Source: a virus. From it: a stretch of DNA of 33,782 nt. Positions 6,966-21,152 of the stretch are shown one piece after another. Positions within the stretch are counted from its first letter, which is position 1. Each line of letters begins with the position of its first letter. A program made the translations under genes and the position numbers. Location of the stretch: positions 1-33,782 of the IMG/VR virus record IMGVR_UViG_3300004805_000021; one strand, written 5' to 3'. The notes beneath the pieces are model-generated. The model worked only from the letters and a program-made list of their open reading frames with translations. It made no database searches and had not been told where the DNA came from.

Positions 6966-6972
6966 ATTTTTA

Positions 6973-7058: not shown

Positions 7059-7100
7059 GCTTTCATTTATAATAATAAATATAACGAATAAAAAATAAAG

Positions 7101-7703
7101 TTAATATGTTAAAGTAATTAAAAATTTACCACCCTCAACTTCAAGTTGTATACCAGTGATATATATTCCACCATAAGTATAATCCGATTTTTCTGTATTA
7201 ATTTCAACTGTTTGTGGTAACTCAACACCAAGTGTATTGCTGGTAATAGTGCCCCTCTCAACTATAATCTCAAAATCTCGATCTTGCATTGTCTCTCCCT
7301 GAAGACTTCCGTATATCTCAATACTAATAGGATCGAGATCAATAGATCTTATACCATAAGCCTTATGTTCCAACTTGATAAAATATCGTATGTTAACTTT
7401 TGAAAAAAGAATATCCATATCCTTCACCACATTAATATAATCATCAATATCGTTACTTTCCAATGTTCTAATGTAAGGATCTGATTCACCAACTGTTTCT
7501 ACCAAACGAGTTCTTTCTGTAACCATCTTTAATTGATTTTCAGTCATCCTAAATATTGGTCTCATCTCAGTAAGCGTTCCCTCACTTGGTTGAACAGCAT
7601 TATATTTGTATAAGTCGAACATGCTTTCCTGTACTTTCTTTGGAAGTTTATCAGTTAATTTTTTTGCTTGTTCTTCACTTATTTTTATCTTCTTCTGTGC
7701 CAT
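7101..7703 (-). CDS. Unknown protein carrying two tag-like modules
   Basis: 200 residues. Two copies of the short module occur near the N-terminus: IKISEEQAKKLTDKL (6-20) and FRMTENQLKMVTERTRL (about 51-67). The rest is beta-rich (IDLDPISIEIYG, FEIIVERGTITSNTLGVELPQTVEINT, YGGIYITGIQLEVEGGKFLITL) and resembles a small virion domain, with no named family. A late-type box at 7720-7729 precedes the ATG. Confidence 0.7.
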   Translation of the reverse strand: MAQKKIKISEEQAKKLTDKLPKKVQESMFDLYKYNAVQPSEGTLTEMRPIFRMTENQLKMVTERTRLVETVGESDPYIRTLESNDIDDYINVVKDMDILFSKVNIRYFIKLEHKAYGIRSIDLDPISIEIYGSLQGETMQDRDFEIIVERGTITSNTLGVELPQTVEINTEKSDYTYGGIYITGIQLEVEGGKFLITLTY

Positions 7704-7719
7704 ATTCTTTTATTTTAAC

Positions 7720-7729
7720 TATAAATAGT
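7720..7729 (-). promoter_or_regulatory. Putative late promoter box ACTATTTATA
   Basis: Lies 16 bases before ATG 7703 and overlaps the stop codon of the upstream gene (7729-7731). Confidence 0.5.
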
Positions 7730-8286
7730 TATAAATGGTCGATAAGTTCCAAAAATAAACCTATGTTGTCTGGAATTGGTGTAAGATGCTCAAATCCAAA
7801 AAATCCTTTCTTAATACCCTTTAAATTATCAAGACAGACAAGTTTTGAAAGACTATAATTATTTACAGTCTTAGCATCAGCAACACCACAAATAAAAAAA
7901 TCTTTTTTTGATAGTTTGCAAACAAATATCGTTGTTCTGTATGTTTTAGGATAAACCAATGGAAAACATCCATATGTGAATGCAATAACGTCAATATTTC
8001 TATTAATTAAAGTATTAATCTCTGATATTCCATATGTGTCTTCGATAGCACTATAGTCAACAAAATTCAGATCTAAATATTGTTCGAGAATAACATCACC
8101 AACAACGGATAAATATATTTTTTCGTATCGCCTAATCTCATATTCATTCAATTTACGTTTTAATTTACGTTCATCTCTTTTTATAAGATTGTTTACTGCA
8201 CTACCTAGTTTAACACTATGTTCATCATCCAGAGTTATCCCAACATACTTTTCATAGTATTTATCAAAATAATCCTCAAATTGCAT
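7729..8286 (-). CDS. Unknown protein, possible nuclease fold
   Basis: About 185 residues from ATG 8286. An alternative ATG at 8298 would lie only four bases from the -7 box, so 8286 is preferred. A charged N-terminal half (LIKRDERKLKRKLNEYE) is followed by IDVIAFTYG...YRTTIFVCKLSKKDFFICGVADAKT and a GFFGFEHL tail. The D...K/E pattern in the second half could be a degenerate PD-(D/E)XK fold, but this is weak. It is divergent from the helicase gene and shares overlapping -33 boxes with it. Confidence 0.6.
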   Translation of the reverse strand: MQFEDYFDKYYEKYVGITLDDEHSVKLGSAVNNLIKRDERKLKRKLNEYEIRRYEKIYLSVVGDVILEQYLDLNFVDYSAIEDTYGISEINTLINRNIDVIAFTYGCFPLVYPKTYRTTIFVCKLSKKDFFICGVADAKTVNNYSLSKLVCLDNLKGIKKGFFGFEHLTPIPDNIGLFLELIDHL

Positions 8287-8302
8287 TGTTTTTAACATGT
8301 TA

Positions 8303-8333
8303 CAAATTTAATAAATTATTTGCTTAGTAACAA
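8303..8333 (-). promoter_or_regulatory. Divergent early-type promoter, leftward
   Basis: Minus-strand TTGTTACTAAGC, 11 bases, TAAATTTG. Its -33 box overlaps that of the rightward promoter inside the 14-bp near-palindrome 8320-8333. Confidence 0.6.
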
Positions 8334-8350
8334 ATTTTTTCTTACATTTG
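8320..8350 (+). promoter_or_regulatory. Divergent early-type promoter, rightward
   Basis: TTGCTTAGTAAC, 11 bases, TACATTTG, ending 24 bases before ATG 8375. It rules out the upstream TTG at 8348 as a start. Confidence 0.65.
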
Positions 8351-8374
8351 TACAAAAATAAAATACCACTTAAA

Positions 8375-9757
8375 ATGAAACCAACAGAAGAACAACTAAA
8401 ATTTATCAACTACGAAGGTACAAACTCATTAATTCTATCATCAACTGCAGGTTCAGGAAAAAGCGCATCATGCGTTGAACGCCTCAACAAAATGCTTCTA
8501 GATGGTCTTGATCCTTCCAGAGTTATCTTTTTTAGTTATACAAACGATGCTGTCAACGAATTAAAATCCAGAATCAAACATGATGTAAAAATATGTACAA
8601 TACATAGTTTTACCAGTAGTGTGCTTGGTAAACTGGGTTTATACAAACCAATTATTACGTTCTTTGATTTTACTAAATGGTATAGAGAAAAGAAGAAACC
8701 ACAATTAAGAGATTCCCTATCCGTTAAAGAGCAATATGCAAAAAATCTTGATGTATTCTATGAAGATAGTGTGTTGATCTCTACATTATTCTCATCATTT
8801 AAACTTCAGATTTATGATGGTATTCGTATGCCAAGACCACAATATTATAACCTTTATGAAGAATTCATAAATGAAACAAAAACTCGTGATTTTGCTGATA
8901 TGTTAATTGATGTTGAGAGACTTTCAAGAGATCCTGGATACAAAGCATTTTTTAATAGAATGTATGATTATGTTTTTGTTGATGAATATCAGGACACATC
9001 AACACTACAGATGAAAATCTTACTTTCGATGAATGCAAAGCAATATCATCTAGTGGGTGATATTTTTCAGAGCATTTTCGGCTTCAGTGGAGCCAATTGT
9101 TTAGAAATTGAAAGATTATTAAAAGAAAAATATACTGTCGAAACATTCACCCTCACCAAAAATTTTAGATCCTATGTTGATATTGTCGATAATGGAAATA
9201 AATATAGTGATCTTAAAGCAATTCCACATCATAAACAAAAAGGAAAAGTCCACCAAAAATTAATTGATGAAGATACTCTTTACAATATGATGGAAGATGG
9301 TGAACCACTTACTGTTTTATGCCGAACAAATTATACAGTGAAAGAACTTGAAAAGTATGGTTTGAAACATAAGATTAAAATGCGTTATTTTAACTTTATA
9401 ACACCCCAGGACATCGAAAAAGTTCAAAGTGGTGAGATTAATCCTTCATTAAAAAAACGTCTTGAAGCTGTGGCTCCGTATCATTTAAACACCATTGGGT
9501 TATTAAAATTTATTGAGGATAATAAAACTTCAAATACTTTTGCAACAACAATACATAAAAGTAAAGGCCGTGAGTTTCCAAGATGTGTCGTAATCAATTC
9601 TGTCGATCCAGAATTATTGGTCGCTGAAGATATGGATTCAAAATATAGTTATATAAATGATAATGGTAATATTGACATTGAAGCTAGGAATGTGCATTAC
9701 GTCGCAGTAACCAGACCAATTAAAGAATTATATTTTTTGGTGATAGACGAAGACTAA
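8375..9757 (+). CDS. SF1 (UvrD/Rep-type) DNA helicase
   Basis: 460 residues with all main motifs: Walker A AGSGKS (25-30), motif Ia FFSYTNDAVNELKSR, IHSFT, motif II VFVDEYQDT, motif III HLVGDIFQSIFGFSGA, motif IV-like LTKNFRS, motif V TIHKSKGREF and motif VI YVAVTRP. It should be an ATP-driven 3'-5' DNA translocase for phage replication, recombination or repair, comparable in role to T4 Dda. It is shorter than bacterial UvrD because the 1B and 2B insertions are small. Start chosen at 8375 because the promoter ends at 8350. Its stop overlaps the convergent small gene at 9754. Confidence 0.9.
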   Translation: MKPTEEQLKFINYEGTNSLILSSTAGSGKSASCVERLNKMLLDGLDPSRVIFFSYTNDAVNELKSRIKHDVKICTIHSFTSSVLGKLGLYKPIITFFDFTKWYREKKKPQLRDSLSVKEQYAKNLDVFYEDSVLISTLFSSFKLQIYDGIRMPRPQYYNLYEEFINETKTRDFADMLIDVERLSRDPGYKAFFNRMYDYVFVDEYQDTSTLQMKILLSMNAKQYHLVGDIFQSIFGFSGANCLEIERLLKEKYTVETFTLTKNFRSYVDIVDNGNKYSDLKAIPHHKQKGKVHQKLIDEDTLYNMMEDGEPLTVLCRTNYTVKELEKYGLKHKIKMRYFNFITPQDIEKVQSGEINPSLKKRLEAVAPYHLNTIGLLKFIEDNKTSNTFATTIHKSKGREFPRCVVINSVDPELLVAEDMDSKYSYINDNGNIDIEARNVHYVAVTRPIKELYFLVIDED

Positions 9758-9900
9758 TTTCCTTGTGAATTATAAGGTTTTTTGTAGTTACTGCTATTCT
9801 TATTAGTACTGGTTTTGTTCTTCGATACAACACCTTTTCTTTTCTTTTTTGATTTTTTCTGAAAAGTTCTCTCTACCGAACCCGTCTTTTTTGTTGCCAT
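9754..9900 (-). CDS. Small, very basic protein (48 aa)
   Basis: ATG 9900 to TAG 9754. The sequence begins MATKKTGSVERTFQKKSKK and stays Lys/Arg/Ser/Asn-rich, with no hydrophobic segment. It may bind DNA or RNA, or be packaged. A late-type box ACTATTTATT at 9912-9921 lies 11 bases upstream, which supports a real gene. Its stop overlaps the end of the convergent helicase gene. Confidence 0.65.
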   Translation of the reverse strand: MATKKTGSVERTFQKKSKKKRKGVVSKNKTSTNKNSSNYKKPYNSQGN

Positions 9901-9911
9901 AATATTTTTTC

Positions 9912-9921
9912 AATAAATAGT
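9912..9921 (-). promoter_or_regulatory. Putative late promoter box ACTATTTATT
   Basis: Precedes the 48-residue basic protein by 11 bases. Confidence 0.45.
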
Positions 9922-9987
9922 TGTTTCATACATAAAAATTTATTATTATTGTAGCCGATAAAATATTGATTTTATCAAAAAATAAAC

Positions 9988-9996
9988 ATATTTATT
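9988..9996 (+). promoter_or_regulatory. Putative late promoter box ATATTTATT
   Basis: Lies 12 bases before ATG 10009, in the gap between the divergent genes at 9900 and 10009. Confidence 0.4.
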
Positions 9997-10008
9997 TTAT
10001 AAAAAGAA

Positions 10009-10242
10009 ATGAGCATTAGAACCATAGAATATTTAAATGATTTCAGAGAAGATCTCAGAAATTTAATTGATGATTATCTTGAAGTACTTTATGAATCAAC
10101 CAACAATGTTGATCTCCATGATGCAATACAAATCAATGTAATCGATAAAGCAACGGAAACGCTTGAAAATGCCGATACTCTTATTGAGGAAATCGAAAAC
10201 GGCAACTATAAAGAAGATAAAGAAGAAATTGAAGAATGGTAA
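10009..10242 (+). CDS. Small acidic helical protein
   Basis: 77 residues, rich in Asp/Glu/Leu/Ile and predicted helical throughout, with an acidic tail (EDKEEIEEW). No family recognised. It is preceded by a late-type box and followed after about 50 bases by the next late gene. Confidence 0.6.
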   Translation: MSIRTIEYLNDFREDLRNLIDDYLEVLYESTNNVDLHDAIQINVIDKATETLENADTLIEEIENGNYKEDKEEIEEW

Positions 10243-10267
10243 TTTAAAATCATTTGCGGTTTTTAAA

Positions 10268-10277
10268 ACTATTTATA
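10268..10277 (+). promoter_or_regulatory. Putative late promoter box ACTATTTATA
   Basis: Lies 15 bases before ATG 10293. The open frame begins further upstream at 10254, but this box places the start at 10293. Confidence 0.5.
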
Positions 10278-10292
10278 ACTATAAACCGCACT

Positions 10293-11114
10293 ATGGATTT
10301 AAATGAAGAGTTGTCTTATATAAAAAGACTTTCAGAAAATTTACAGAAAATCTACGAAGAAGATGCTGACGCGTCAGTGAGTGATTCTAATCCAACTGGT
10401 GCACCACCACCTCCACGAAAATCAGCACCAGTACGAGGAAAAGCCAACCCCATCGCAAGTCACGGTGTTTATGACTTTGGTATGCAAGACGGTCCAGCAA
10501 GAGGAATAATCTGGGAAGACGAAAAGTCACCAGATGAAGAAATGGATGAGGAAATGGAACAAGAACTCGATGATATTATCAAGGAAAGTAAAACCGAAAG
10601 TGAAGTTAAAAGAATTAAAGAAATAATGCATATCAAAGAGAATCCAGATACTTTAAGAATTGATAATAAAAAAATATGGTATAACGATCCAAATGAAAAT
10701 GCATTTGGTTTTGGTTATTATAAAAACAAAATGGTTTTCACTGATCTTGGTAAAAATCATACAGAATTTTCCGATGAAGATTTAATATCATCCAGAGATG
10801 ATTTAAAAACACCAGGAAGAATTTTCCCAAACCAAAAAGTCATTTCATTTTGGAATTTAAAAGGTAAAACATTACCAGCTGTTATTCATGATATTAATAA
10901 CACTTTAAAAGAAGAAAATAAAGGATATATTATTGATAATAGTTGGCGCATTAGTGTATGTAGTTTAGCACAAGTAAAATCTAAAGAGCCTTTAGATTCC
11001 GAAAGAGCTTTACCTCTCGATGATGTTATTAAGGCTGTTGGTTCTAAAGACTCTACAGATACTTATTTAATATCCTGGGATACAGTATATGATATTATTT
11101 ATTATGGAACATGA
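10293..11114 (+). CDS. Probable virion protein with tag-like modules
   Basis: 273 residues from ATG 10293 (MDLNEELSYIKRLSENLQKIYEED). A Pro-rich linker (PTGAPPPPRK) and an acidic stretch lead to SEVKRIKEIMHIKENPD, the RIKxMxIxE module seen also in the genes at 1206 and 11886. The C-terminal domain begins IDNKKIWYNDPNENAFGFGYYKNKMVFTDLG..H and ends near YDIIYYGT; no family known. Its TGA overlaps the next start (ATGATG at 11111), implying coupling. Confidence 0.65.
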   Translation: MDLNEELSYIKRLSENLQKIYEEDADASVSDSNPTGAPPPPRKSAPVRGKANPIASHGVYDFGMQDGPARGIIWEDEKSPDEEMDEEMEQELDDIIKESKTESEVKRIKEIMHIKENPDTLRIDNKKIWYNDPNENAFGFGYYKNKMVFTDLGKNHTEFSDEDLISSRDDLKTPGRIFPNQKVISFWNLKGKTLPAVIHDINNTLKEENKGYIIDNSWRISVCSLAQVKSKEPLDSERALPLDDVIKAVGSKDSTDTYLISWDTVYDIIYYGT

Positions 11115-11452
11115 TGAAATATTTTGCCGACATATTAGCAAAATTCACAAGAGGTCAAAGAATATTTGTATTATTTTTATTATTAATCTTTACCTCTGGC
11201 ACCTACCTTACCGCAGGTTATTTTAAAACTGATGATTGTTCATCTTTGAGAAAAGAATATATGAGCCTACAAGCTGATTATATTACACTCGGAAAAATTA
11301 TCGATAATGAAATAAGAAAAGAAACAACAAACTCACCAAATAAATCAGTACAAGATACTGTCCAATTAAATAAAATAGAATCAAACAATAAAACAATGTT
11401 GAAAAAAATATCTTTAATTATTAAAAAACATTCTAATATGAAAAACGATTAA
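11111..11452 (+). CDS. Single-pass membrane protein with coiled-coil tail
   Basis: 113 residues. A short basic N-terminus (KFTRGQR) precedes one strong membrane segment, IFVLFLLLIFTSGTYLTAGYF (about 18-38); the rest is polar and helical and likely periplasmic (N-in by the positive-inside rule). Topology and size fit an i-spanin or a lysis/adsorption accessory protein, but no partner o-spanin is visible. Translationally coupled to the gene before; it overlaps the convergent gene end by four bases. Confidence 0.6.
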   Translation: MMKYFADILAKFTRGQRIFVLFLLLIFTSGTYLTAGYFKTDDCSSLRKEYMSLQADYITLGKIIDNEIRKETTNSPNKSVQDTVQLNKIESNNKTMLKKISLIIKKHSNMKND

Positions 11453-11730
11453 GCGTCTATCATATTCACAGTACCACGATAAATAGTGCCCATACCATTA
11501 GCCACCTCAACGAAAGCTGTACCATCCTCTTCAACATCAAAAACCCGCAAATGAAAAGTTGTTTCATCTTCGTCTTCTTCATATTCCTTTAGATCACCCA
11601 TTCTGGCGCCATTATTATCAGCTGGTCCTGAATTATCAAATATTTCCTCCTGGTGAGGAACTTCAAAATCTTCATTCAGATTAAGCAATCTGCGTATCGA
11701 ATTTATATTTTCATTTAATTTATTCGTCAT
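11449..11730 (-). CDS. Small acidic protein with tag-like N-terminus
   Basis: 93 residues. NINSIRRLLNLNEDFE (8-23) matches the (I/L)xE-ending module of other putative virion proteins. The C-terminal FHLRVFDVEEDGTAFVEVANGMGTIYRGTVNMI looks like a small beta domain. Its ATG lies within the stop region of the upstream 51-residue gene, so it is the last gene of the leftward unit from 13163. Confidence 0.65.
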   Translation of the reverse strand: MTNKLNENINSIRRLLNLNEDFEVPHQEEIFDNSGPADNNGARMGDLKEYEEDEDETTFHLRVFDVEEDGTAFVEVANGMGTIYRGTVNMIDA

Positions 11731-11875
11731 CTGTCTCTTTATCTAATCTTTCTATTTCTTTAATTATAATATCTTTACACTTACCACCTAAACTTCTATC
11801 ATTTAAATAAGCATAACTTAATGCTTTTGAAATACAACGCATCTTTGATTTCTCTTCTTCGCTGTATTTATCCAC
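11720..11875 (-). CDS. Small protein (51 aa), GTG start
   Basis: GTG 11875 to TAA 11720: DKYSEEEKSKMRCISKALSYA... ending LDKETDDE. Mixed charged and helical, with a KSKM..ISKALSYAYLNDRSLGGKCKDIIIKEI core. It lies 10 bases after the large gene's stop and overlaps the next ATG by 11 bases, typical of a coupled operon. An alternative ATG 33 bases inside would give 40 residues. Confidence 0.6.
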   Translation of the reverse strand: MDKYSEEEKSKMRCISKALSYAYLNDRSLGGKCKDIIIKEIERLDKETDDE

Positions 11876-11885
11876 CGCATATAAT

Positions 11886-13139
11886 TTATTTAAGTTTTGA
11901 TTTTACTAACTCAACTAACCTATGTTTTACAATTATACTCATCTGTTGCTCAGTTACAAGAATTTTCTTCTTTCCAGATAACCCCAAATGTCTCTTTATC
12001 TTTTCCATCTGAGCTTCTGTAACAAGAATCTTCTTTGTTTTCTTCACCTCATCAACGCCAATTGGTCTAAGGACTTTATCTGGATTTGTTCCATTAGGAT
12101 CATCCCGATCTTCCCAAGGTTCTCGTTCTAAATTACCAAACTCATTTAATTTCTTTGTAATCTCATAAAAGATTTTTTCTTCTTCGTCTGGCGCATACCC
12201 ATAAAGATGATACCCTCTTTGTTCATATTCACCTGAATGTTGATCCATCTCTGGATTATCACTATACCAAATACCACTATGGAAAGCAGAACTACTTGGT
12301 TCTGAGGCGCCTTTATCTGCGAGAAATTGTACAGTTTTTTCAATAACAGTTATTCCTTCATCTGAATCATAATCATCTGGTTCCATTGATACGCCTTGCT
12401 CGTCTACCCAACCAGAATCTGAAAAATCACCGTTTTCAGCTGAATCTTCATTCCATGTTTGATATGTAATCTTAACAATATGCCCAAGACTTTCTTCGGT
12501 TGGTTCAGGAAAATTATTATCACTGGCTTCCATTCCCATGACTTCCCTTATTCTTTTAAGATCTTCATAAACATTACCCTTGGCTCCAGCTCTGGTTTCC
12601 ATCCAACTACCTTCACCCATAGCACCTTGATCGAAACCGCTACCAACTTCCATTCCATACATCTCATCAACAGCTGGTTCTGTCACCATTTTATCGGTTT
12701 CATACTCAGCATCAAGCCTTTGTTGTTCCATAGCTTTGATCATTCCATGACTTAAAGAATTATATATTTCTTCACCGTATTTTTCTTTGATTTCATTTTC
12801 ATCCCTGAAATCGAATACCCTATCCTTCAACTTGAAAGCCATAACCCTTTCCATTTTAATATTTCTCCAACTTTTACTTGCAGCCAAAGCTTTATCCATT
12901 CCACCTTTAATGAATTGTATGAATGTGTTGGTATCAACAACAGTCAATAGATTGTTATTGTTTGCCATGTTTATTTGGGCGTCTGATTTATCAGCACTAC
13001 TTCCAATATAGGAATTTAATTTTTTTCTGAAAGCCATGTGCCTTACAGCACCATCCGCTTTAACAAAAGCAACGCCAATAGTGACATTATTATTGAAAGC
13101 CGACATAACTTCTTGTGGGATATTTTCTCGTGTTAACAT
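11886..13139 (-). CDS. Probable virion protein with three tag-like modules
   Basis: 417 residues from ATG 13139. The frame is open to 13178, but the late box at 13154-13163 argues against the earlier start. N-terminal domain MLTRENIPQEVMSAFNNN...SYIGSSADKSDA; a middle module YEDLKRIREVMGMEASDN of the RIKxMxGIxE type; then a domain with WNEDSAENGDFSDSGWVDE; and two C-terminal modules ILVTEAQMEKIKRHL and ILVTEQQMSIIVKHRL. A protein with copies of both tag types is a good candidate for a scaffold or internal virion protein. No known family is recognised. Confidence 0.7.
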   Translation of the reverse strand: MLTRENIPQEVMSAFNNNVTIGVAFVKADGAVRHMAFRKKLNSYIGSSADKSDAQINMANNNNLLTVVDTNTFIQFIKGGMDKALAASKSWRNIKMERVMAFKLKDRVFDFRDENEIKEKYGEEIYNSLSHGMIKAMEQQRLDAEYETDKMVTEPAVDEMYGMEVGSGFDQGAMGEGSWMETRAGAKGNVYEDLKRIREVMGMEASDNNFPEPTEESLGHIVKITYQTWNEDSAENGDFSDSGWVDEQGVSMEPDDYDSDEGITVIEKTVQFLADKGASEPSSSAFHSGIWYSDNPEMDQHSGEYEQRGYHLYGYAPDEEEKIFYEITKKLNEFGNLEREPWEDRDDPNGTNPDKVLRPIGVDEVKKTKKILVTEAQMEKIKRHLGLSGKKKILVTEQQMSIIVKHRLVELVKSKLK

Positions 13140-13153
13140 TTGTATTTTTTTCT

Positions 13154-13163
13154 TATAAATAGT
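13154..13163 (-). promoter_or_regulatory. Putative late promoter box ACTATTTATA
   Basis: Lies 14 bases before ATG 13139 and probably drives the three-gene unit 13139-11449. Confidence 0.5.
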
Positions 13164-13222
13164 TTTAAATACACCCAAATTTTTATCATTATGGTTAATA
13201 CTTATATTAAACCAATTAAGCT

Positions 13223-14035
13223 ATGGTACGATCATTTAAAGATTCATTATCCGTATTGAAATTCAAACTATTATCAAGAATTAGATATTTCTTAAATATT
13301 AAATCAAAAACTATATACCCACCTAACGATTACAAACTTGTATTCGAAGATAATTTTAACAACCTAAATAAAACAAATTGGGGAATCGGATCTCCTTGGG
13401 GCTGTGGTGTGTATAATAATTTCTCCTATTGGGGTGATACCGAAGATTTCATAAGAATAACATATAATACATTAATTCTTGAATCACATAATAAACCCAA
13501 AGAATTTGATGGCGTTATACATAATATAGGTATGGGTGCAATATTCACCCACCAAAACTGGCATTACGGTTGGTTTGAAATTGAAGCAACGTTACCAAAA
13601 GAAAAAAATATTTGGCCAGCCATTTGGCTCACAGGTGTAAATACCTGGCCACCTGAAATTGATCTTGTTGAAGGATATTCAGATGCTGGTGAATGTATGT
13701 TAAGTGATAACCATAAACATGAAGACTGGAGATTACAACCAAATATACATTTTGGCGTTGTTGCTGATGGTACAAAAGATTTTTATCGCGCAGAAAATCA
13801 TCCAATAAAAAATGCAACCAACCAATATGTTAAATATATTTGCCATTGGACTAAAGATTTTATAGACATCTTTTATGATGGTCATAAAATTTTAAGAACA
13901 ACAAACCCAAAAATCCTTAAATGGTTTAATGGTGAAAAAGATTCTATGCTTATAATCCTAAATAATGCTGTATGTAACGAAAATGCAACCGATAGTACTT
14001 TTAGAATTAAATCTGTAAAAGTCTTTCAAAAATAA
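13223..14035 (+). CDS. Glycoside hydrolase family 16 enzyme
   Basis: 270 residues. After a basic N-terminal 30 residues, the GH16 jelly roll begins (YKLVFEDNFNN.NKTNW), continues with GMGAIFTHQNWHYGWFEIEATLP and IWPAIWLTG, and has the catalytic motif EIDLVE (Glu145, Asp147, Glu150; the ExDxxE form of laminarinase-like members). It should hydrolyse a beta-1,3/1,4-linked polysaccharide; the substrate cannot be told. In a phage it is most likely a depolymerase against host capsule or matrix, or helps release. No clear signal peptide and no tail-attachment domain are seen. Confidence 0.85.
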   Translation: MVRSFKDSLSVLKFKLLSRIRYFLNIKSKTIYPPNDYKLVFEDNFNNLNKTNWGIGSPWGCGVYNNFSYWGDTEDFIRITYNTLILESHNKPKEFDGVIHNIGMGAIFTHQNWHYGWFEIEATLPKEKNIWPAIWLTGVNTWPPEIDLVEGYSDAGECMLSDNHKHEDWRLQPNIHFGVVADGTKDFYRAENHPIKNATNQYVKYICHWTKDFIDIFYDGHKILRTTNPKILKWFNGEKDSMLIILNNAVCNENATDSTFRIKSVKVFQK

Positions 14036-14036
14036 T

Positions 14037-14067
14037 TTGCACAGTAAATTTATTTTACTTAACTTTG
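14037..14067 (+). promoter_or_regulatory. Array-type early promoter, rightward
   Basis: TTGCACAGTAAA, 11 bases, TAACTTTG. The -33 box is the exact consensus of the leftward array. ATG 14081 follows 13 bases after. Confidence 0.8.
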
Positions 14068-14080
14068 TAAAAAAATTAAT

Positions 14081-14374
14081 ATGGACGAATTTAACTGTAA
14101 CACCAATCGTACATCAAATGCATTCAACAGCTTGATAGCAATCGGTGCAAACAAAACAGCAATCCTTATCAACAGTGAACCAAATCTTATTACTGAAAAT
14201 ATTTTTGATGGTGATTATCTTGATGATAACCTAACAGACATAAGAAACATTCCAACTGAACCAGGACTATATAAATGTAAAATATTTGTTTATGGCTATA
14301 AATGCGTTAATGATTGTGGTACCGAATATTATATGGATGTCTGGATGGACTCAATCGAAAAAATTGACCAGTGA
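14081..14374 (+). CDS. Unknown small protein under an early promoter
   Basis: 97 residues, acidic, with five Cys and a beta-rich centre (GLYKCKIFVYGYKCVNDCGTEYYMDVWMDSI). No domain recognised. It is the only rightward gene with the exact early box, which suggests it belongs functionally with the leftward array. Confidence 0.7.
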   Translation: MDEFNCNTNRTSNAFNSLIAIGANKTAILINSEPNLITENIFDGDYLDDNLTDIRNIPTEPGLYKCKIFVYGYKCVNDCGTEYYMDVWMDSIEKIDQ

Positions 14375-14445
14375 AAATACTTATGTTTCGTATTCGTATT
14401 ATAAGGATTAAACTGACTAAGATAATATGAAACATAATTTGTATA

Positions 14446-15773
14446 GTGAACTACCCACCCACGCCAAAGGCGATGGGATGGGCTTCAAGGGTTAACGCTC
14501 CAACTAATGTTGGCAACTTACCTTGATTTTTCCTATCCGTTCCAGATAAGATATTTTTTAATGCAAATGATTTAATATTTATGGCAGCATTAACATCCCT
14601 CGAAACAACTTCACCACACTTTGGACAAGTCCATTCCCTATCTTTTAGAGTTAGGTCTTTGTTTATATGTCCGCAATTTGCGTGTAGTTTCGATGATGGT
14701 TCAAATCTGCCTATTTTTAGAATGTTCTTGCCATACCATTCTGCTTTGTATTCCAACATAGTTACAAAAGTTGACCACCCTGCATCACTTATTGATTGTG
14801 CAAGTTTGTGGTTCTTAACCATATTGGAAACTGCTAAATCTTCAATAGCTATGCTTTCGTGGTTCTTGATAAGTTCGCTTGAAGTTTTGTGTAAGAAGTC
14901 TTTACGTTGATTAGCTACTTTTTCGTGTAGAATAACCAACTTATGCCTCGTTCTCTTCCCTTTGTGCTTTGAATATTTGCGTTGTACATATTTTAATTTG
15001 CTTTGTGCCTTGCGAAGGAATTTAGGATTATCAAATTCTTTACCATCAGATGCAACAAGGTATGTTTTAATTCCTAAGTCTATTCCAACGGTTGTATTTT
15101 CTTTGATTTTTGCCTTTAGTTTAATTGCTTCACCAGTTTCACAAAGGATAGACACAAAGTATTTGCCTGTTGGAGTTCTGCTAATTGTAGCTTGTCTTAT
15201 ATCTCCTTTAGTTGGTCTGTGCAAAATAATATCAATCCCCTTTTTGAATTTTGGAATGATTAGTTTGCTGTTTTCTAACGTTACGCTTTGTGGGATATTA
15301 AAACTACCTCCGTTTGATTTCTTTTTGAAATTTGGGAAACTATTTTGTCCTTTAAAAAAAGCTGTGTATGCCTTATCTAAGTTGGTTATTGATTGTTGTA
15401 ATGATTGGCTGTTGATTTCTTTAAGCCATTCACATTCAGTTTTAAGGTCTTTTAATTGGCTATGTAGTGCAAAGCAACTTAAATTAACTTTATTGCCAGC
15501 CCAAGCCATCTGTTTGCATTCTAAGGCTAAATTAAATACAAAACGACTTGCTCCAATATGCTTATTCAGCAAAATGGATTGTTCCTTTGTAGGGTTAATT
15601 TTGTATTTAAAAGCCTTTAACATCAATTATAAATATGTACAAATATACAAATATTTAAAGAAACAACAAAATTTATTTAAAATAATTATTAACTTTGTAG
15701 TGCAATTAACGGAGCAGGTCGCTTACATCCCACCCACGCTAAAAAGCGATGAGTGGGCTTTCGCTCCCATTAA
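14446..15773 (-). mobile_element. IS605-type element with tnpB only
   Basis: Right end at 14446-14480 and left-end hairpin at about 15715-15773 flank one tnpB; no tnpA is present. The target on the element strand is TTTAC, and excision restores the host gene exactly. It must depend on a TnpA in trans, plausibly the one at 28653. Confidence 0.85.
14451..15623 (-). CDS. tnpB: TnpB RNA-guided nuclease (IS605 family)
   Basis: 390 residues from ATG 15623. N-terminal HTH region (LKAFKYKINPTKEQ), then RuvC-like residues Asp182 (VGIDLGIKT), Glu261 (IAIEDLAV) and Asp343 (SRDVNAA), all present. The zinc finger is changed: HANC (314-317) where other copies have CSNC, then CPKC (333-336); a His ligand could still bind zinc. 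The frame continues through the right end and stops at its TAG. TnpB cuts DNA next to a target motif using an RNA made from the right end. By position the guide would start TATACAAATTATG and the motif would be TTTAC. Confidence 0.85.
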   Translation of the reverse strand: MLKAFKYKINPTKEQSILLNKHIGASRFVFNLALECKQMAWAGNKVNLSCFALHSQLKDLKTECEWLKEINSQSLQQSITNLDKAYTAFFKGQNSFPNFKKKSNGGSFNIPQSVTLENSKLIIPKFKKGIDIILHRPTKGDIRQATISRTPTGKYFVSILCETGEAIKLKAKIKENTTVGIDLGIKTYLVASDGKEFDNPKFLRKAQSKLKYVQRKYSKHKGKRTRHKLVILHEKVANQRKDFLHKTSSELIKNHESIAIEDLAVSNMVKNHKLAQSISDAGWSTFVTMLEYKAEWYGKNILKIGRFEPSSKLHANCGHINKDLTLKDREWTCPKCGEVVSRDVNAAINIKSFALKNILSGTDRKNQGKLPTLVGALTLEAHPIAFGVGG

Positions 15774-16236
15774 GTAAATTTTTTGATGATCATGAGAAAA
15801 AATTAAAAGCTGGAAGTAATCCAATAAAAACTATCAGTGATGTTGTTCTCGATCCAAGTGACGGGGATTTCTCACTTAAAATAAATGGACATGATCATCT
15901 CTGGATTGATAACAATTCAGTGATTGAGATTGCCGATTATATTGAACAAAATATTATGCAAACTGGTTATATCGCAATTACTTGGGACGTGCTGAACGTG
16001 TACGACAAAAACGAGAATGGAACAGAATTTAAAAAAGTGTCAGAACTCGAAATAGGAAAAGAATACTCCTCACCAAAAAAACTTTGGTTCTTTGTGACTG
16101 ACGAACATCATGGTGGTGCCCTTCATGAATTTGAAGTGACCTTCAAAGCCAAGGATGTTGACCAAAAATTTTCAAATGGCTATGAAGTTAAAAAGATAAA
16201 AATTGTTAAAGAAATTGAAAGAAAAAACCTTTTAAA

Positions 16237-16329
16237 ATGAAAAAGTTAATATTAAATAAGGATCAGGATAGACCTGTAAGATTTCAAGGGGCTAACTATA
16301 TGGTTGGGATTGTGAAACCGTGCTCGTGA
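16237..16329 (+). CDS. Very small frame coupled to the split gene
   Basis: 30 residues, MKKLILNKDQDRPVRFQGAN... ending VKPCS, starting in an ATGA overlap with the preceding stop. Short, but the overlap is typical of coupled phage genes. No function suggested. Confidence 0.35.
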   Translation: MKKLILNKDQDRPVRFQGANYMVGIVKPCS

Positions 16330-16381
16330 TGAATGCAGCATGTGTCATTCCTCTGAGCAAAGGAATCTATTTCGGGAAATA

Positions 16382-16528
16382 TCATATCTCTACTTTTTTC
16401 TGTCTAATCAAATCCTTTGACTCTTCTTCCGTTCCCATAACTCCCATCTCTTCCCTGCTCTTTATGTATGCCTGCTCTGCTATTCTATTTGCCTCTTCCA
16501 TACACTTCTTCTTCTCATCACTTCTCAT
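16382..16528 (-). CDS. Small charged protein (48 aa)
   Basis: ATG 16528 to TGA 16382. Starts MRSDEKKKCMEEANRIAEQ and ends LIRQKKVEI; probably helical. The late-type box at 16543-16551 lies 14 bases before the ATG, the main support. REEMGVMGTEE faintly recalls the tag-like module. Confidence 0.5.
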   Translation of the reverse strand: MRSDEKKKCMEEANRIAEQAYIKSREEMGVMGTEEESKDLIRQKKVEI

Positions 16529-16542
16529 AAAATTATATTTCT

Positions 16543-16551
16543 TATAAATAT
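16543..16551 (-). promoter_or_regulatory. Putative late promoter box ATATTTATA
   Basis: Precedes the 48-residue frame at 16528 by 14 bases. Confidence 0.45.
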
Positions 16552-17083
16552 CTGATAATATCTGGTAATTTTTTCCTGAAAAATATTTTTAGATTTTGAA
16601 CTTCTTCAGAAACAAGATCCGTTTTTTGCCCTCCTCTCACGTTTTGTATCCCCTGTTTCATAATAAAGATTCTGATTTTTTTAAAAAATTCTTTATCGGA
16701 AAAATTTTAAAAAATTGATAACTACCTTAAATTAGGGTTGTTTTAAGCCTGGAAAAATTTTTGACTAAAAGTTCACTTGGTATATTGAGGCCCCTTTTTA
16801 AGGGGGGGGGGATATACTGGCCCTGGTGGGGGGATACCCATACCCTATACCCATACCCCACATATGTCCATGTCCCTTATATGTTTGCTGTTGTATATAA
16901 TATATCTTATAATATAGCAGGATATATTTACTGTGCAAGTATATTATTAAATTTATTTTTTAATCATTTTAAAGCTCACTGTTAAACGCAAAGGTTAAAT
17001 CGATAGATAACACTACTTTTATATTATCGTTTGTTGTGGTTGTTGATAGGTACTTAAAATGATATGTATATCCTATAATGAGA
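16552..17083. other. Gene-free junction with G-tract and ATACCC repeats
   Basis: No convincing gene on either strand. It holds a CCCCTT/AAGGGG hairpin leading into ten consecutive G (16802-16811), a second G-rich stretch, then four ATACCC-like units (about 16837-16860). The rest is very AT-rich. The patch marks the change from mixed-strand to leftward genes and could be a replication or packaging feature; no origin motif is identified. Confidence 0.5.
16908..16938 (-). promoter_or_regulatory. Early promoter with degenerate -7 box
   Basis: Minus-strand TTGCACAGTAAA is exact, but the -7 position reads ATATTATA. No gene follows. It is probably a decayed copy at the end of the array. Confidence 0.4.
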
Positions 17084-17107
17084 AAAGCCCGACTATTACA
17101 TCAGGCT
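17084..17107 (-). terminator. Intrinsic terminator after the 17130 gene
   Basis: Minus strand: AGCCTGA, 8-base loop region, TCGGGCT (one G-T pair), then TTTT. Confidence 0.6.
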
Positions 17108-17129
17108 CTTTGTGATATGTTGGATATTG

Positions 17130-17690
17130 TTATTCGGCAAATTTAACCTCTTCGCCTACCTTTATTTGTTTTATCCCTTCTAATTTTACTGTTCTAACAA
17201 TTACATCATTTTCGAGTCCTTGATTGAAAGCCTTTGCAGTTGTAGGTTTGAACTGTTTGATAATTTTTATTTGCTCTTCGGTTGCTTCGATACCATTAAC
17301 AAAATAGCCTAGATTTTTAGTTACACCTACATTGCAAATAAATTTAAGGTATTGGCAATTAGTATCAGATTTTTTTGCAATTAGTGAACCATTAAAAGAA
17401 TCTACAATTGTTGTAAACCAATTTTCCTTTGCTACAAATTTTTCAGCAGTTTCGCCGTTTGCAGTTGCCTCTTTAATTCTTGCGTTGTTTACTACATTAG
17501 TGTAATTGCTATTAAGTAACATATTATAACTTACTAACTTTGTGATACCTTCATTTTTTAATGGATTACCCGTTTTAAGTTGTTTTTCTTCAACAATTGC
17601 TAACATTTGACCAAAGGTAGCAGAACCGCCGTTATTAATGATTAAACTAATAATTTCAGCTTTTTTTGATAATTTAATTTCGTTTGTCAT
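17130..17690 (-). CDS. Unknown phage protein, HTH-like N-terminus
   Basis: 186 residues from ATG 17690; an upstream ATG in the same frame at 17729 would overlap the promoter. The start, EIKLSKKAEIISLIINNGGSATFGQML, looks like a winged-helix or HTH segment. The middle has NYTNVVNNARIKEA, and the end is beta-rich (VIVRTVKLEGIKQIKVGEEVKF). Related proteins with an N..Y..VVNNAR segment occur in other Bacteroidota phages as far as I recall, without known function. Own promoter and terminator. Confidence 0.7.
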   Translation of the reverse strand: MTNEIKLSKKAEIISLIINNGGSATFGQMLAIVEEKQLKTGNPLKNEGITKLVSYNMLLNSNYTNVVNNARIKEATANGETAEKFVAKENWFTTIVDSFNGSLIAKKSDTNCQYLKFICNVGVTKNLGYFVNGIEATEEQIKIIKQFKPTTAKAFNQGLENDVIVRTVKLEGIKQIKVGEEVKFAE

Positions 17691-17726
17691 ACATTCAATT
17701 TTTAAAATGTGATTAAAATTATGATA

Positions 17727-17757
17727 CAAAGGTAATTTAAAATTATTTACTGTGCAA
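17727..17757 (-). promoter_or_regulatory. Early promoter of the 17690 gene (type entry for the array)
   Basis: Consensus of the array, read on the coding strand: TTGCACAGTAAA, exactly 11 bases, TAnnTTTG. Here the -7 box is TACCTTTG. TAnnTTTG and a -33 TTG are the known Bacteroidota primary sigma factor elements. The extra conserved CACAGTAAA is specific to this phage region and may be bound by another factor. Confidence 0.85.
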
Positions 17758-17765
17758 GTGAATTA

Positions 17766-17893
17766 TTAATTATTTTTAATTTCTTTTTTAGCTGTTTGTC
17801 GTATACGACTACGGACTAATTTCTTAAAAGTTTTATCTTTTTTCGTCCCCGAAGTTCTTTGTTGGTTATCTTTTTTTCTGTTTTGTTGTCCAT
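17766..17893 (-). CDS. Small basic protein read through a dnaX-type slippery site
   Basis: ATG 17893 follows the promoter at 17927, but its zero frame ends after 25 codons. A -1 slip at 17876-17870 (A AAA AAG, in the correct phase, like E. coli dnaX) leads into the frame ending 17766 and gives 42 residues: MDNKTEKKDNQQRTSG... with a basic end KKLVRSRIRQTAKKEIKNN. The long frame has no start of its own after the promoter. Alternatives are a one-base deletion or an assembly error. Confidence 0.55.
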
Positions 17894-17926
17894 TGTTTTG
17901 CGTTTTATCTTGATTTGATATTGGTT

Positions 17927-17957
17927 CAAATATACGGAAAAGAAATTTACTGTGCAA
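17927..17957 (-). promoter_or_regulatory. Early promoter of the 17893 gene
   Basis: -7 box TATATTTG. The leader that follows is almost the same as that at 21430-21475. Confidence 0.85.
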
Positions 17958-17975
17958 ATATATTAAATAAAAAAT

Positions 17976-17998
17976 ACGTGGCTTATTTCAGACCACGT
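17976..17998 (-). terminator. Intrinsic terminator after the 18300 gene
   Basis: ACGTGG, 11-base loop, CCACGT, then T-rich on the minus strand. Confidence 0.65.
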
Positions 17999-18025
17999 TC
18001 AGACGTAATGCTATAAGATATGTTA

Positions 18026-18045
18026 ATTATCTTCGTCCGAAGATA
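18026..18045. repeat. 8-bp inverted repeat between stop and terminator
   Basis: TATCTTCG, TC, CGAAGATA. An 11-codon frame (MGDEVDIFGRR) overlaps it on the minus strand; it may be a leaderless peptide, an operator, or chance. Confidence 0.3.
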
Positions 18046-18063
18046 TCTACCTCATCTCCCATA

Positions 18064-18300
18064 TTATTTTATTTTTTGTTTTTTAGTGTCCCAGTTTCCA
18101 TAAGATTTAGCAATAGGATTGCCCCGTGAATAGCTATCAAATATTTTGATAACATCACCATTGTTCATTTCGTGAACTTCCTTAGTTCCAGCACCGCCAA
18201 ACATAGAAAATGATTCACCATAAACAGATTTGCCTTGAGCAATACGTTCATTGATTTCTTTTTTTGACTTGCCTTTGATATAATAGGTTTGAATTGCCAT
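18064..18300 (-). CDS. Unknown small early protein
   Basis: 78 residues from ATG 18300. Starts MAIQTYYIKGKSKKEINERI and holds GNPIAKSYGNW near the end. No domain recognised. Own promoter at 18322, 21 bases upstream. Confidence 0.7.
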   Translation of the reverse strand: MAIQTYYIKGKSKKEINERIAQGKSVYGESFSMFGGAGTKEVHEMNNGDVIKIFDSYSRGNPIAKSYGNWDTKKQKIK

Positions 18301-18321
18301 TGTTTTGTTATTTTGTTGAAG

Positions 18322-18352
18322 CAAAGGTATGAATAATTTATTTACTGTGCAA
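18322..18352 (-). promoter_or_regulatory. Early promoter of the 18300 gene
   Basis: Consensus -33; -7 TACCTTTG. Confidence 0.85.
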
Positions 18353-18364
18353 GTGAATTATTAA

Positions 18365-18697
18365 TTATTTTTTACAAATATCATTCATTGATAATATGCA
18401 ATAGTATTTTTTATTACTGAAACCATAATCGAAATAGCAATTTTTAATTTCGGTAGCATTAAGAAATTTATTTGCAATTTTTTTGTTTGTAAACTCAAAC
18501 TTAATATAGGTACAAATATTATTAACAAATATAATTGTCACGTATCTATCAATTTCATTTATTTCAAATGCCATTGTATCTGATTTAAAACTAAAGTATG
18601 AAGGGTTGATTTTAAATCTGTCATAATTCATACCAATTTGTGCATTAGAATTAATAGAGATGAAAGTGATTACGAGTAATAATAATAATTTTTTCAT
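18365..18697 (-). CDS. Small secreted protein with SNAQ signal peptide
   Basis: 110 residues from ATG 18697. Basic start MKK, hydrophobic LLLLLVITFISI, and cleavage after NSNA before Q, the common Bacteroidota signal peptidase I form. The mature part is about 90 residues with four Cys (CTYIKFEF, CYFDY, CILSMNDIC) and could form disulfides in the periplasm. It may alter the host envelope or block superinfection; this is inference from export and early expression. Confidence 0.7.
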   Translation of the reverse strand: MKKLLLLLVITFISINSNAQIGMNYDRFKINPSYFSFKSDTMAFEINEIDRYVTIIFVNNICTYIKFEFTNKKIANKFLNATEIKNCYFDYGFSNKKYYCILSMNDICKK

Positions 18698-18730
18698 AAT
18701 GTTTGTTGTTTTAGTTGTTATTTGATAGTT

Positions 18731-18761
18731 CAAATTTACGATAAAATTATTTACTGTGCAA
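18731..18761 (-). promoter_or_regulatory. Early promoter of the 18697 gene
   Basis: -7 TAAATTTG. The upstream gene's stop (18764) lies three bases from the -33 box. Confidence 0.85.
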
Positions 18762-18763
18762 AT

Positions 18764-19075
18764 TTAATATGTTTGTATAACTCTTTTAATAAATACTATA
18801 CTATCAGATTTACTAATTCTACCAAATATATTATCATTAACTGAAAAATTATAATTTGTGAATAGTTCAGCGATTTTATAATTTGCTACAATTTGTTTTT
18901 GGTTATTCTCCGACCAGGTTTTTTGTCCCTTAAAAGTGTATGCATATTTATAACTTCCATGTGGTTTTTCAACAGTTATAATTATTGCTGAATTATCATT
19001 TTTTGGATAATATGTTTCTTGAGTACATGAAGATAATAGATATAATAATACGGATAATAATAATACTTTTTTCAT
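18764..19075 (-). CDS. Small lipoprotein
   Basis: 103 residues from ATG 19075. MKKVLLLSVLLYLLSSC has a lipobox LSSC with Cys17 as the lipidated residue. The mature chain is beta-rich (AIIITVEKPHGSYKYAYTFKGQKTW) and ends with SKSDSIVFIKRVIQTY. No family known. Probably in the host outer or inner membrane facing the periplasm. Confidence 0.7.
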   Translation of the reverse strand: MKKVLLLSVLLYLLSSCTQETYYPKNDNSAIIITVEKPHGSYKYAYTFKGQKTWSENNQKQIVANYKIAELFTNYNFSVNDNIFGRISKSDSIVFIKRVIQTY

Positions 19076-19099
19076 AGGTTTAATTGTTATTTGATGATT

Positions 19100-19130
19100 C
19101 AAAGATAATATAAAATTATTTACTGTGGAA
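19100..19130 (-). promoter_or_regulatory. Early promoter of the 19075 lipoprotein gene
   Basis: Variant -33 TTCCACAGTAAA; -7 TATCTTTG. Confidence 0.75.
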
Positions 19131-19143
19131 GTGATTACAAAAA

Positions 19144-19169
19144 AAAGTTGCTCATTTCTGAACAACTTT
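19144..19169 (-). terminator. Intrinsic terminator after the mini-lipoprotein gene
   Basis: AAAGTTG / CAACTTT stem with a 12-base loop, then a T-run on the minus strand. Confidence 0.65.
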
Positions 19170-19194
19170 CCTAACAACAATTTAAAAAAAGAAA

Positions 19195-19281
19195 TTATTT
19201 AATAATACCAGAACAAGCACCAAGAACAATTGCTAAAATAAGGATAACATAAAATGCGATAAAGATTCGTGAGGTTTTCAT
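19195..19281 (-). CDS. 28-residue lipoprotein-like peptide
   Basis: ATG 19281 to TAA 19195: a short basic start, a hydrophobic stretch FIAFYVILILAIVLGAC and the tail SGIIK. VLGAC is a good lipobox, so the mature product would be a lipidated hexapeptide; otherwise it is a one-helix membrane peptide. Its own promoter (19318) and terminator (19144) bracket it, which is strong support for a real gene despite the size. It resembles entericidin or lysis-lipoprotein peptides in form only. Confidence 0.65.
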   Translation of the reverse strand: MKTSRIFIAFYVILILAIVLGACSGIIK

Positions 19282-19317
19282 AGATTTAAGTATTTAATTG
19301 TTTAAATATTTGTACTT

Positions 19318-19348
19318 CAAAGATAATATAAAATTATTTACTGTGCAA
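19318..19348 (-). promoter_or_regulatory. Early promoter of the 28-residue peptide gene
   Basis: Consensus -33; -7 TATCTTTG. Confidence 0.85.
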
Positions 19349-19363
19349 ATAAATCAAACAAAA

Positions 19364-19388
19364 AAGCCTAACTTTTTACATTAGGCTT
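19364..19388 (-). terminator. Intrinsic terminator after the 19779 gene
   Basis: AAGCCTAA / TTAGGCTT stem, 9-base loop, T-run on the minus strand. Confidence 0.7.
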
Positions 19389-19422
19389 AATTGCGTGATA
19401 CAAAGGCAGACAGAAAAGTATT

Positions 19423-19779
19423 TTATATATTTTTATCAATCCAGATTTGACAATCATCAACAGTCACCCAGATGATCATTTTTTCAAGTTCTTGTTTTGT
19501 TGTTTTACATGAAACAGATTCGCCATTGTTTGTATTAGTTCCAATAACAAGTCCGTTTCCAACGATAGGATATGACCAATTTTTCATCATGAACCCGCCA
19601 ATATTATCATGAAACAAACCTTCCTCATCACAATAGATAACATCAGCCTGATCAAGTTCAACAGGACAATCAAACATATTACAGTCGTTTCCTAAAGCTT
19701 CGTATATGGGTTTTAAACCCTTTTCCAATTCGATTTCGATAATCGTTTTGGTTACTACATCAATTTTAAGTACTTTCAT
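19423..19779 (-). CDS. DUF3846-like protein
   Basis: 118 residues. MKVLKIDVVTKTIIEIELEKGLKPIYEALG followed by ADVIYCDEEGLFHDNIGGF and YPIVGNGLVIGT fits the layout of DUF3846 (a start VxVDP-like, an EEG in the middle, I-GxxVI near the end), found in phages and plasmids with no known function. The match is from memory of the pattern. Confidence 0.6.
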   Translation of the reverse strand: MKVLKIDVVTKTIIEIELEKGLKPIYEALGNDCNMFDCPVELDQADVIYCDEEGLFHDNIGGFMMKNWSYPIVGNGLVIGTNTNNGESVSCKTTKQELEKMIIWVTVDDCQIWIDKNI

Positions 19780-19804
19780 TTGTTTTGTTGTTTAATTGTT
19801 GATT

Positions 19805-19835
19805 CAAAGGTATGAATAATAAATTTACTGTGCAA
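19805..19835 (-). promoter_or_regulatory. Early promoter of the 19779 gene
   Basis: Consensus -33; -7 TACCTTTG. Confidence 0.85.
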
Positions 19836-19841
19836 ATTAAT

Positions 19842-20141
19842 TTAATTATTTTTCGCAATATCCTCCAATTCAAAACGTAATAATCTACCAGCTTTAAATG
19901 TATCATGACCATATCCGCCACCAGAATATATCTGATTCTGATTAACATTTATCCAAAACATTTCACCCAGAAAATCAATAAGAACTTTACAAACATTCTG
20001 ATCTCTATTTTGTGTGCCGAATATAGGAATTTTTACACTAAACGAATATTCGCCACCAGCTGAAATATAATATCCAATTGAATACCAAGCTATAGATTTG
20101 CCTTCTTTTATTTTTTTATTTAATAATTCTATTGTTTCCAT
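19842..20141 (-). CDS. Unknown early protein (99 aa)
   Basis: METIELLNKKIKEGKSIAWYS, then a Gly/Tyr-rich beta region (GYYISAGGEYSFSVKIPIFG) and a helical end. No family recognised. Single gene between two array promoters. Confidence 0.7.
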   Translation of the reverse strand: METIELLNKKIKEGKSIAWYSIGYYISAGGEYSFSVKIPIFGTQNRDQNVCKVLIDFLGEMFWINVNQNQIYSGGGYGHDTFKAGRLLRFELEDIAKNN

Positions 20142-20165
20142 AGTTTAATTGTTGATTTGATAGGT

Positions 20166-20196: not shown

Positions 20197-20201
20197 ATAA
20201 A

Positions 20202-21151: not shown

Positions 21152-21152
21152 G

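Follow-up and report, generated by a model that had tools for sequence, protein, structure and literature searches.

A laminarinase-like GH16 gene on a phage contig and its sequence-based placement in a branch found mainly in phages

Genes for GH16 enzymes occur among virus-encoded CAZymes in the available portions of three reports (PMC6460857, PMC9636769, PMC12053484). Viral GH16 laminarinases have already been published; the accessible text of one study (PMC11126160) describes 17 such genes from seawater, kelp and sediment viruses, which are said there to form their own viral cluster and are read as feeding genes, with Flavobacteriaceae suggested as hosts. Like the gene described here, these are PF00722 genes in virus genomes with laminarinase-like predicted structures. 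The difference is that they are read as feeding genes, and their comparison with the branch reported below is by description only. The main text of that paper nowhere uses the term 'signal peptide'.

In the consulted part of PMC6827312, the PBCV-1 protein AAC96462.1 was the only characterised viral GH16 in 2019 and was nearest to GH16_3, for which the pattern WPA...WXX...WPX is given. Curtobacterium phages (H4-H10) also carry a phage GH16 with the WPPEID motif (L006). However, there it is part of a minor tail protein of nearly 900 residues, and the one row tested (L006) groups with cellular rows in the 115-row tree presented below. AAC96462.1 is presumably the PBCV-1 glucanase A094L. According to the accessible parts of PMC5408694 and PMC7019647, the PBCV-1 glucanase is produced at a very early stage and has disappeared by 60-90 min, and a role in the breakdown of storage glucan has been proposed. 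It resembles the present gene in being a virus-encoded enzyme of the glucanase type, but it is an early protein of a chlorovirus, a virus of green algae, whereas the present gene has no early-type promoter site upstream. Among bacterial enzymes, the ExoK/EglC-type glycanases cut exopolysaccharides. GH16 enzymes have also been described as bacterial mucin O-glycanases in the available text of PMC9853417. A limited, mostly open-access literature search returned no title describing a GH16 phage branch, its N-terminal helix or an overlap with a clamp-loader gene.

The DNA analyzed here (the window) comprises the full length, 33,782 bases, of the IMG/VR virus record IMGVR_UViG_3300004805_000021. 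The record is labelled linear and is therefore probably a fragment of a large virus. An ORF on the plus strand at 13223-14035 encodes 270 residues from an ATG start with no internal stops. The Pfam profile Glyco_hydro_16 (PF00722) matched this protein at E=2e-8 with 34.3 bits, above the curated cut-off of 22. The ExDxxE motif reads EIDLVE at residues 145-150 and lies in the catalytic stretch WPPEIDLVE (W142-P-P-E145-I-D147-L-V-E150), which, computed from the ORF start, falls at 13646..13672 on the plus strand. Other GH16s have additional residues separating WP from the catalytic glutamate, for example WPMCGEID in L004, and these are lacking in the stretch WPPEID. The GH16_3 pattern is present as W131-P-A133, W135-L136 and W142-P-P144. 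Its third X is proline, where A, K, R, M or L is usual in the accessible text of PMC6827312. The ExoK/EglC-type glycanases were the best NCBIfam matches, but were sub-threshold with scores far under the family cut-offs (45.7 against 700 and 22 against 350). The gene was also found on a second IMG/VR contig of 12.1 kb, which matches the window at 100% identity across the 8,914 bases compared.

An AlphaFold2 model built from a 57-row alignment had a mean pLDDT of 91 and a pTM of 0.90, with a helix at residues 5-24 followed by a jelly roll. The protein can thus be predicted with confidence to have the beta-jelly-roll GH16 fold. The model comprises a single GH16 domain and one helix; no second domain was seen in it, and no tail or particle-binding domain is fused to the enzyme. 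When solved structures were searched with phmmer, 11 sequences matched at E<=0.001, the best being 6t2n (1.1e-11), a GH16 entry from a mucin O-glycanase study, followed by SCLam, 8va4 and ZgLamA. Foldseek placed ZgLamA first (4.7e-17) and SCLam second. The Foldseek match to ZgLamA and the occurrence of the same gene on the second contig indicate that the GH16 identity is not due to chance. The GH16_3 laminarinases ZgLamA (4bow, 4bq1) and SCLam (6xof) are the best structural matches and share the jelly roll, the ExDxxE motif and the WPA...WXX...WPX pattern, but are only 20-28% identical to the window protein.

The VIA-align comparison of the model with ZgLamA (4bpz_B) gave a Z of 25.0 and an rmsd of 2.5 over 220 residues, while agarase, carrageenase and lichenase chains gave Z values of 22.4-23.9. 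With values so high for enzymes of other specificities, the fold alone does not fix the substrate. An earlier note, made from the sequence alone, had described the gene as a GH16 glycosidase of the laminarinase/agarase type with an intact active site, and as devoid of a signal peptide and of a tail-binding domain. The profile match, the residues E145, D147 and E150 and the one-helix, one-domain model agree with that description, as does the N-terminal hydropathy given below. Laminarinases are indeed the nearest enzymes in structure, but the agarase half of the description did not hold up as well, the agarase chains ranking lower (Z 22.8) in a comparison that cannot settle specificity. An agarase or carrageenase identity was set aside as having no support, since both rank under ZgLamA, even if a structural comparison cannot exclude either. 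The protein is confirmed as an enzyme of a known family in a phage; the gene is real but not unprecedented.

The first ~36 residues (13223..13330, plus strand) form a basic N-terminal extension containing the modelled helix 5-24, a block with a pLDDT of 90-95. Judged by Kyte-Doolittle hydropathy rather than by a signal-peptide predictor, this N-terminus has no hydrophobic stretch and no export signal, the best 11-residue mean being 1.09. The possibility was considered that the helix is amphipathic and anchors the protein in the membrane. In none of 19 sequences was the hydrophobic moment significantly (p<0.05) higher than in shuffled controls, and membrane anchoring is therefore without support.

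The N-terminus of the cellular kin is different. Among 295 relatives of G002, the one Bacteroidia genome with a phage-type match, 16 had a match at E<=1e-20, and at least 11 of these 16 carried proteins of the lipoprotein type, complete or cut, as judged by eye. In 395 genomes drawn evenly from Bacteroidota, a match at E<=1e-20 was found only in the starting genome G002. The main cellular type (10 loci, ~300 residues, with WPPEID) has a signal ending in Cys in 9 of the 10 by eye, the tenth being cut. This type scored 112-122 bits against the phage profile; phage-type rows that were not used for building the profile scored 243 (L003), 311 (L005), 260 (L141) and 161 (L143). The best N-terminal hydropathy was 2.60-3.61 in the 10 cellular relatives checked, and a value of 2.0 or more was reached in only 2 of the 57 phage-set rows (L041, L063), the other 55 having no signal-like N-terminus. 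By their sequences, the cellular kin in Bacteroidia appear to be mostly surface lipoproteins. Because the hydropathy is high in these kin and low in 55 of the 57 phage rows, the phage branch mostly lacks the export signal of its kin.

Searching 50,697 phage records with tblastn yielded 10 matches; 7 were Curtobacterium tail proteins, two came from phages of 642 and 634 kb, and one from a gut contig. A profile search based on the window protein and two large-phage proteins found 171 virus-contig relatives on contigs of up to 385 kb. The best 80 of these 171 were examined, and statements on branch membership cover those 80. After cut, short and near-copy rows were dropped, 56 representatives, 4 of them from genome contigs (L087, L088, L090, L091), together with the window gave 57 aligned rows of 224-306 residues. 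E145, D147 and E150 are invariant in all 57 rows. Thirteen columns are invariant in total, among them W142, P143, P144, E145, I146, D147 and E150; the search patterns contained a [ST]WPPEID or YG..E stretch, so that the conservation of WPPEID is biased and that of E150 is not. The proteins of subtype A (window, L003, L008-L031, L058) begin with a basic extension of ~25-40 residues similar to that of the window protein. Subtype B is mostly ~225-250 residues long, with the GH16 core almost from the start and without the helix.

The phage rows were split from the other rows with an SH-aLRT of 94 in a 115-row tree whose 'cell' group includes two phage-record rows (L004, L006). That tree was built without 11 gut Clostridia loci, the cut rows L089, L142, L149 and L156, the duplicate L140, L143, L113 and rows of ~30 bits or less. 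A 70-row tree gave 98/95 for phage against other GH16 rows, 100/95 for subtype B and 94/79 for subtype A; it was chosen by hand, long or weak rows being dropped (L026, L058, L090, L091, L004, L006, L131, L153 and L154, among others) and further rows removed for size. The nearest rows to the window in this tree are L016, L008 and L009. By these alignments and trees, the window GH16 is placed in a branch found mainly in phages and is not a lone capture. Phage-type matches were also seen in cellular assemblies (L141, L143, and the cut L142 and L156); L143, which was left out of the trees, has the motif EIDCVE. Two candidates were discarded. WPPEID is not a phage hallmark, as many cellular GH16s, found partly with a pattern containing it, carry it. 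The human-gut contig MT838766 is not a branch member, as its GH16 groups with cellular rows in the 115-row tree; the ORFs beside that gene look by eye like ordinary glycosidases.

The earlier note had also placed the gene in a phage genome. This stands on the IMG/VR classing of the record as a virus and on the phage-type genes around the GH16, which include a dNMP kinase, a helicase and an endonuclease VII-like protein. The protein encoded at 230-991 has a weak nucleotidyltransferase match under the Pfam cut-off, and tblastn found its relatives in 45 phage records, among them 15 of Prevotella (Lak), 14 of Synechococcus, 8 of Maribacter, 2 of Caulobacter, 1 marine virus and uncultured phages of 634, 636, 642 and 735 kb. 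No capsid, terminase or tail gene was recognized among the 30 of 85 listed window ORFs compared one by one with PHROGs or among the 20 scanned with Pfam. The tRNA scan of the window was empty, and megablast of positions 5000-24000 gave no match to phages. Virus contigs scanned with the 230-991 protein as a single query gave no relative, and the helicase found only the identical contig; thus no longer contig of this phage was found.

The divergent neighbour of the GH16 gene (11886..13139, minus strand) encodes 417 residues from its ATG and belongs to PHROG 2267; tblastn of this protein (11889-13139) against phages gave no match, and two KKILVTE repeats lie at its C-terminus. Downstream, a 97-residue ORF at 14081..14374 on the plus strand matched no family in Pfam or PHROGs. 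It is followed at 14451..15626 on the minus strand by a TnpB (IS605 OrfB) gene, which belongs to a separate mobile element near the GH16 gene and is not part of it. IS200/IS605-type elements lie at 27330-29057, 14445-15626, 3478-5166 and 1132-1173, with a Y1 transposase at 28653-29057 (plus strand), a second TnpB at 27388-28506 (minus strand) and inverted partial copies of the Y1 gene region (86-89%) at 3478-3869. A 42-43-nt repeat resembling an IS605 end is present in four copies, two of them without a full TnpB ORF. The endonuclease VII-like gene is present as an intact ORF (22431-23120) and two partial copies, related stretches being found at 22908-23086, 24895-24985 and 27127-27308.

Promoter-like motifs bear on both the host and the timing of expression. 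The window contains 32 sites of the form TTG[CT]AC[AC][AG]TAAA, of which 28 have TAnnTTTG at one fixed distance; as a control, TAnnTTTG anywhere in the same range occurred at 4.6% of random places. We take TAnnTTTG to be the Bacteroidota -7 element. The sites (TTGCACAGTAAA) lie at 14037 on the plus strand and at 16938-33333 on the minus strand, nearly all before an array of small minus-strand genes. The set makes a strong case for a Bacteroidota-type early regulon, and because the promoters are of this type (28 of 32 sites) a Bacteroidota host is suggested. The marine or algae-associated host envisaged in the earlier note found no support here. A Prochlorococcus host, hinted at by L087, was rejected; 11 kb of that contig are syntenic with the virus contig L034, so that the contig probably represents phage DNA within the single-cell assembly. 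L087 (1-11087), filed under Prochlorococcus AG-409-L21, ends by eye in a sorting domain like that of the Bacteroidota T9SS.

None of the 32 sites lies upstream of the GH16 gene. The site at 14037..14067 (plus strand, TTGCACAGTAAAT-N-TAACTTTG) is directly behind the GH16 stop and would serve the next gene rather than GH16. A second promoter class is likely to be represented by TATTTATA, which was found exactly before 6 of 61 window ORF starts, 12-16 nt from the ATG, against 1 in all over 19 shifted controls. The six positions are 210, 10270 and 22414 on the plus strand and 13161, 7727 and 6080 on the minus strand, the copy before the divergent neighbour being 14 nt from its ATG. Sixteen nt before the GH16 ATG is TACTTATA (13199..13206, plus strand), which differs from TATTTATA by one mismatch. 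With one mismatch allowed the enrichment is modest (9 of 61 starts; the shifted controls gave 0-6, with a mean of 2.6), and the site before GH16 is therefore weak. Read on the opposite strand, TATTTATA gives TATAAATA, the late motif of T4; that it marks late expression is a guess.

Gene order was compared among the relatives, the neighbours examined being 83 of 157 in subtype A and 94 of 141 in subtype B. The upstream neighbour is on the same strand in 76 of the 81 loci that have one, and the same small gene lies directly downstream in 13 loci. The neighbours differ, which indicates that GH16 sits in different modules in different phages.

Several other features were noted near these genes. 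A small gene family present at 10 loci, which resembles acyl-CoA thioesterases by eye, adjoins GH16 in both subtypes (L008 8884-9315; upstream of GH16 in L078, L079, L083 and L085). A protein of 51-77 residues with a WSVEDF-like motif adjoins GH16 or is close to it in 7 loci of subtype A, which include near-copies (L009 1977-2210; also L011, L012, L014, L016, L017 and L021). In the 642-kb phage LR756502 (L003), adjacent ORFs at 10543-14119 resemble by eye a TonB-dependent receptor, PnuC and NadR, perhaps an NAD-precursor uptake set. An MKxLKxFNE-like N-terminal tag was found on unrelated small proteins (13 of 1865 ORFs, against 0-1 in 5 shuffles) at 7 loci that include the near-copies L023 and L024, and a MKKIIKLTESDL-like tag on 3 ORFs at 2 loci; the tag-bearing proteins are spread across L003, L005, L023, L024, L029-L031, L015 and L027. 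By analogy with the capsid targeting sequence of T4, the shared tags may possibly be packaging signals.

The reading that we tentatively prefer, at somewhat less than even likelihood, is that of a signal-less beta-1,3(4)-glucanase-like enzyme that stays in the cytoplasm until lysis releases it to cut host or neighbouring matrix glycan. The protein would be a catalytically competent retaining endo-glycosidase, most likely a GH16_3-like beta-1,3(4)-glucanase. It would be made in the host cytoplasm without an export signal, would probably accumulate in the later phase of infection and would be released at lysis. We infer that the released enzyme could then cut a beta-glucan-type matrix, either host exopolysaccharide or the glycan of nearby particles, which would free progeny virions and open the way to the next cells. 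The invariant catalytic residues (57 of 57 rows), the laminarinase-like model, the GH16_3 pattern, the exported kin and the lack of an early-type site upstream are consistent with this reading, as is the TATTTATA-like motif before the gene, exact in L023 and L026. Several observations speak against it. The other 56 of the 58 relatives have no exact TATTTATA within 40 nt of the GH16 start, no lysis gene was recognized adjoining GH16 in the window, and the best phmmer match is the entry from the mucin O-glycanase study.

Alternatively, the protein may be carried in the virion, perhaps by way of its basic N-terminal helix, and clear surface glycan at adsorption; this we consider unlikely, at roughly one chance in five. 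The extension is found throughout subtype A and its model is of high confidence, and a GH16-containing tail protein is known from the Curtobacterium phages. Tail-fibre-type genes are also near GH16 in two subtype A loci: Mtd_N and collagen-repeat proteins are downstream in L018, and a protein with an endosialidase-chaperone domain is three genes upstream in L023. Several tail-fibre PHROGs were present among the families of the 83 subtype A neighbours, but the commonest neighbour families are thymidylate synthase and the clamp loader. In addition, subtype B has no helix, the length of the 57 rows leaves little room for a tail domain, and no tail or baseplate gene was recognized among the window ORFs scanned.

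The clamp-loader association raises another possibility, namely that the enzyme cuts a glucan pool inside the infected cell and so supplies energy or building blocks, in the way suggested for the PBCV-1 glucanase; we regard it as no more probable than carriage in the virion. The absence of an export signal by hydropathy fits such a role. A gene of one ATPase cluster lies immediately upstream of GH16 in 12 closely related loci and overlaps it by 4 nt in 10 of the 12. PHROGs identified this cluster as a DNA polymerase clamp loader (phrog_168; 6 of the 94 subtype B neighbour proteins), and a GroEL gene is close to GH16 in several loci of the lineage. The overlap, although in another lineage than that of the window, suggests expression with replication genes, which also counts against the reading that we prefer. 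Thymidylate synthase is frequent among subtype A neighbours (7 of 83). However, L052, L054 and L056 of the clamp-loader lineage have another upstream gene, the cellular kin are mostly exported and the window gene has no early-type promoter site before it. Furthermore, to our knowledge no store of beta-1,3-glucan has been established for the cytoplasm of such hosts.

It is rather improbable that the gene helps an infected flavobacterium to digest algal laminarin, which is how the accessible text of PMC11126160 interprets the GH16 genes of kelp-associated phages. The laminarinase-like fold agrees with this, but, going by the hydropathy, an enzyme without an export signal should not reach laminarin before lysis, and nothing found for the window ties it to algae or to a particular habitat.

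More speculatively still, the phage enzyme family might act inside the infected cell during genome replication on an unrecognized cytoplasmic glycan, such as a sugar polymer attached to nucleic acid, an EPS precursor linked to lipid, or nascent exopolysaccharide. Such a role, to which we assign little probability, would explain both why there is no export signal and why, in the one lineage, the gene overlaps that of the clamp loader by 4 nt.

A last possibility is a functionless passenger, or a gene in decay, that arrived with the nearby IS605-type element. The TnpB gene of this element and its 43-nt end-like repeat begin ~410 nt past the GH16 stop, a single small ORF lying in between. We consider this origin very improbable, as the frame is intact and the catalytic residues are invariant across 57 rows. 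GH16 was also rejected as cargo of the element because the end-like repeat was seen on one side of it only.

Whether or not the enzyme is released at lysis as we prefer, the findings suggest that scattered recent captures do not account for all GH16s of large phages, some of which form a broad, separate branch with an intact active site. The size of this phage branch and the near absence of export signals within it give the gene its added interest. A branch that is mostly without an export signal calls into question the usual reading of such genes as serving to feed on algal polysaccharide.
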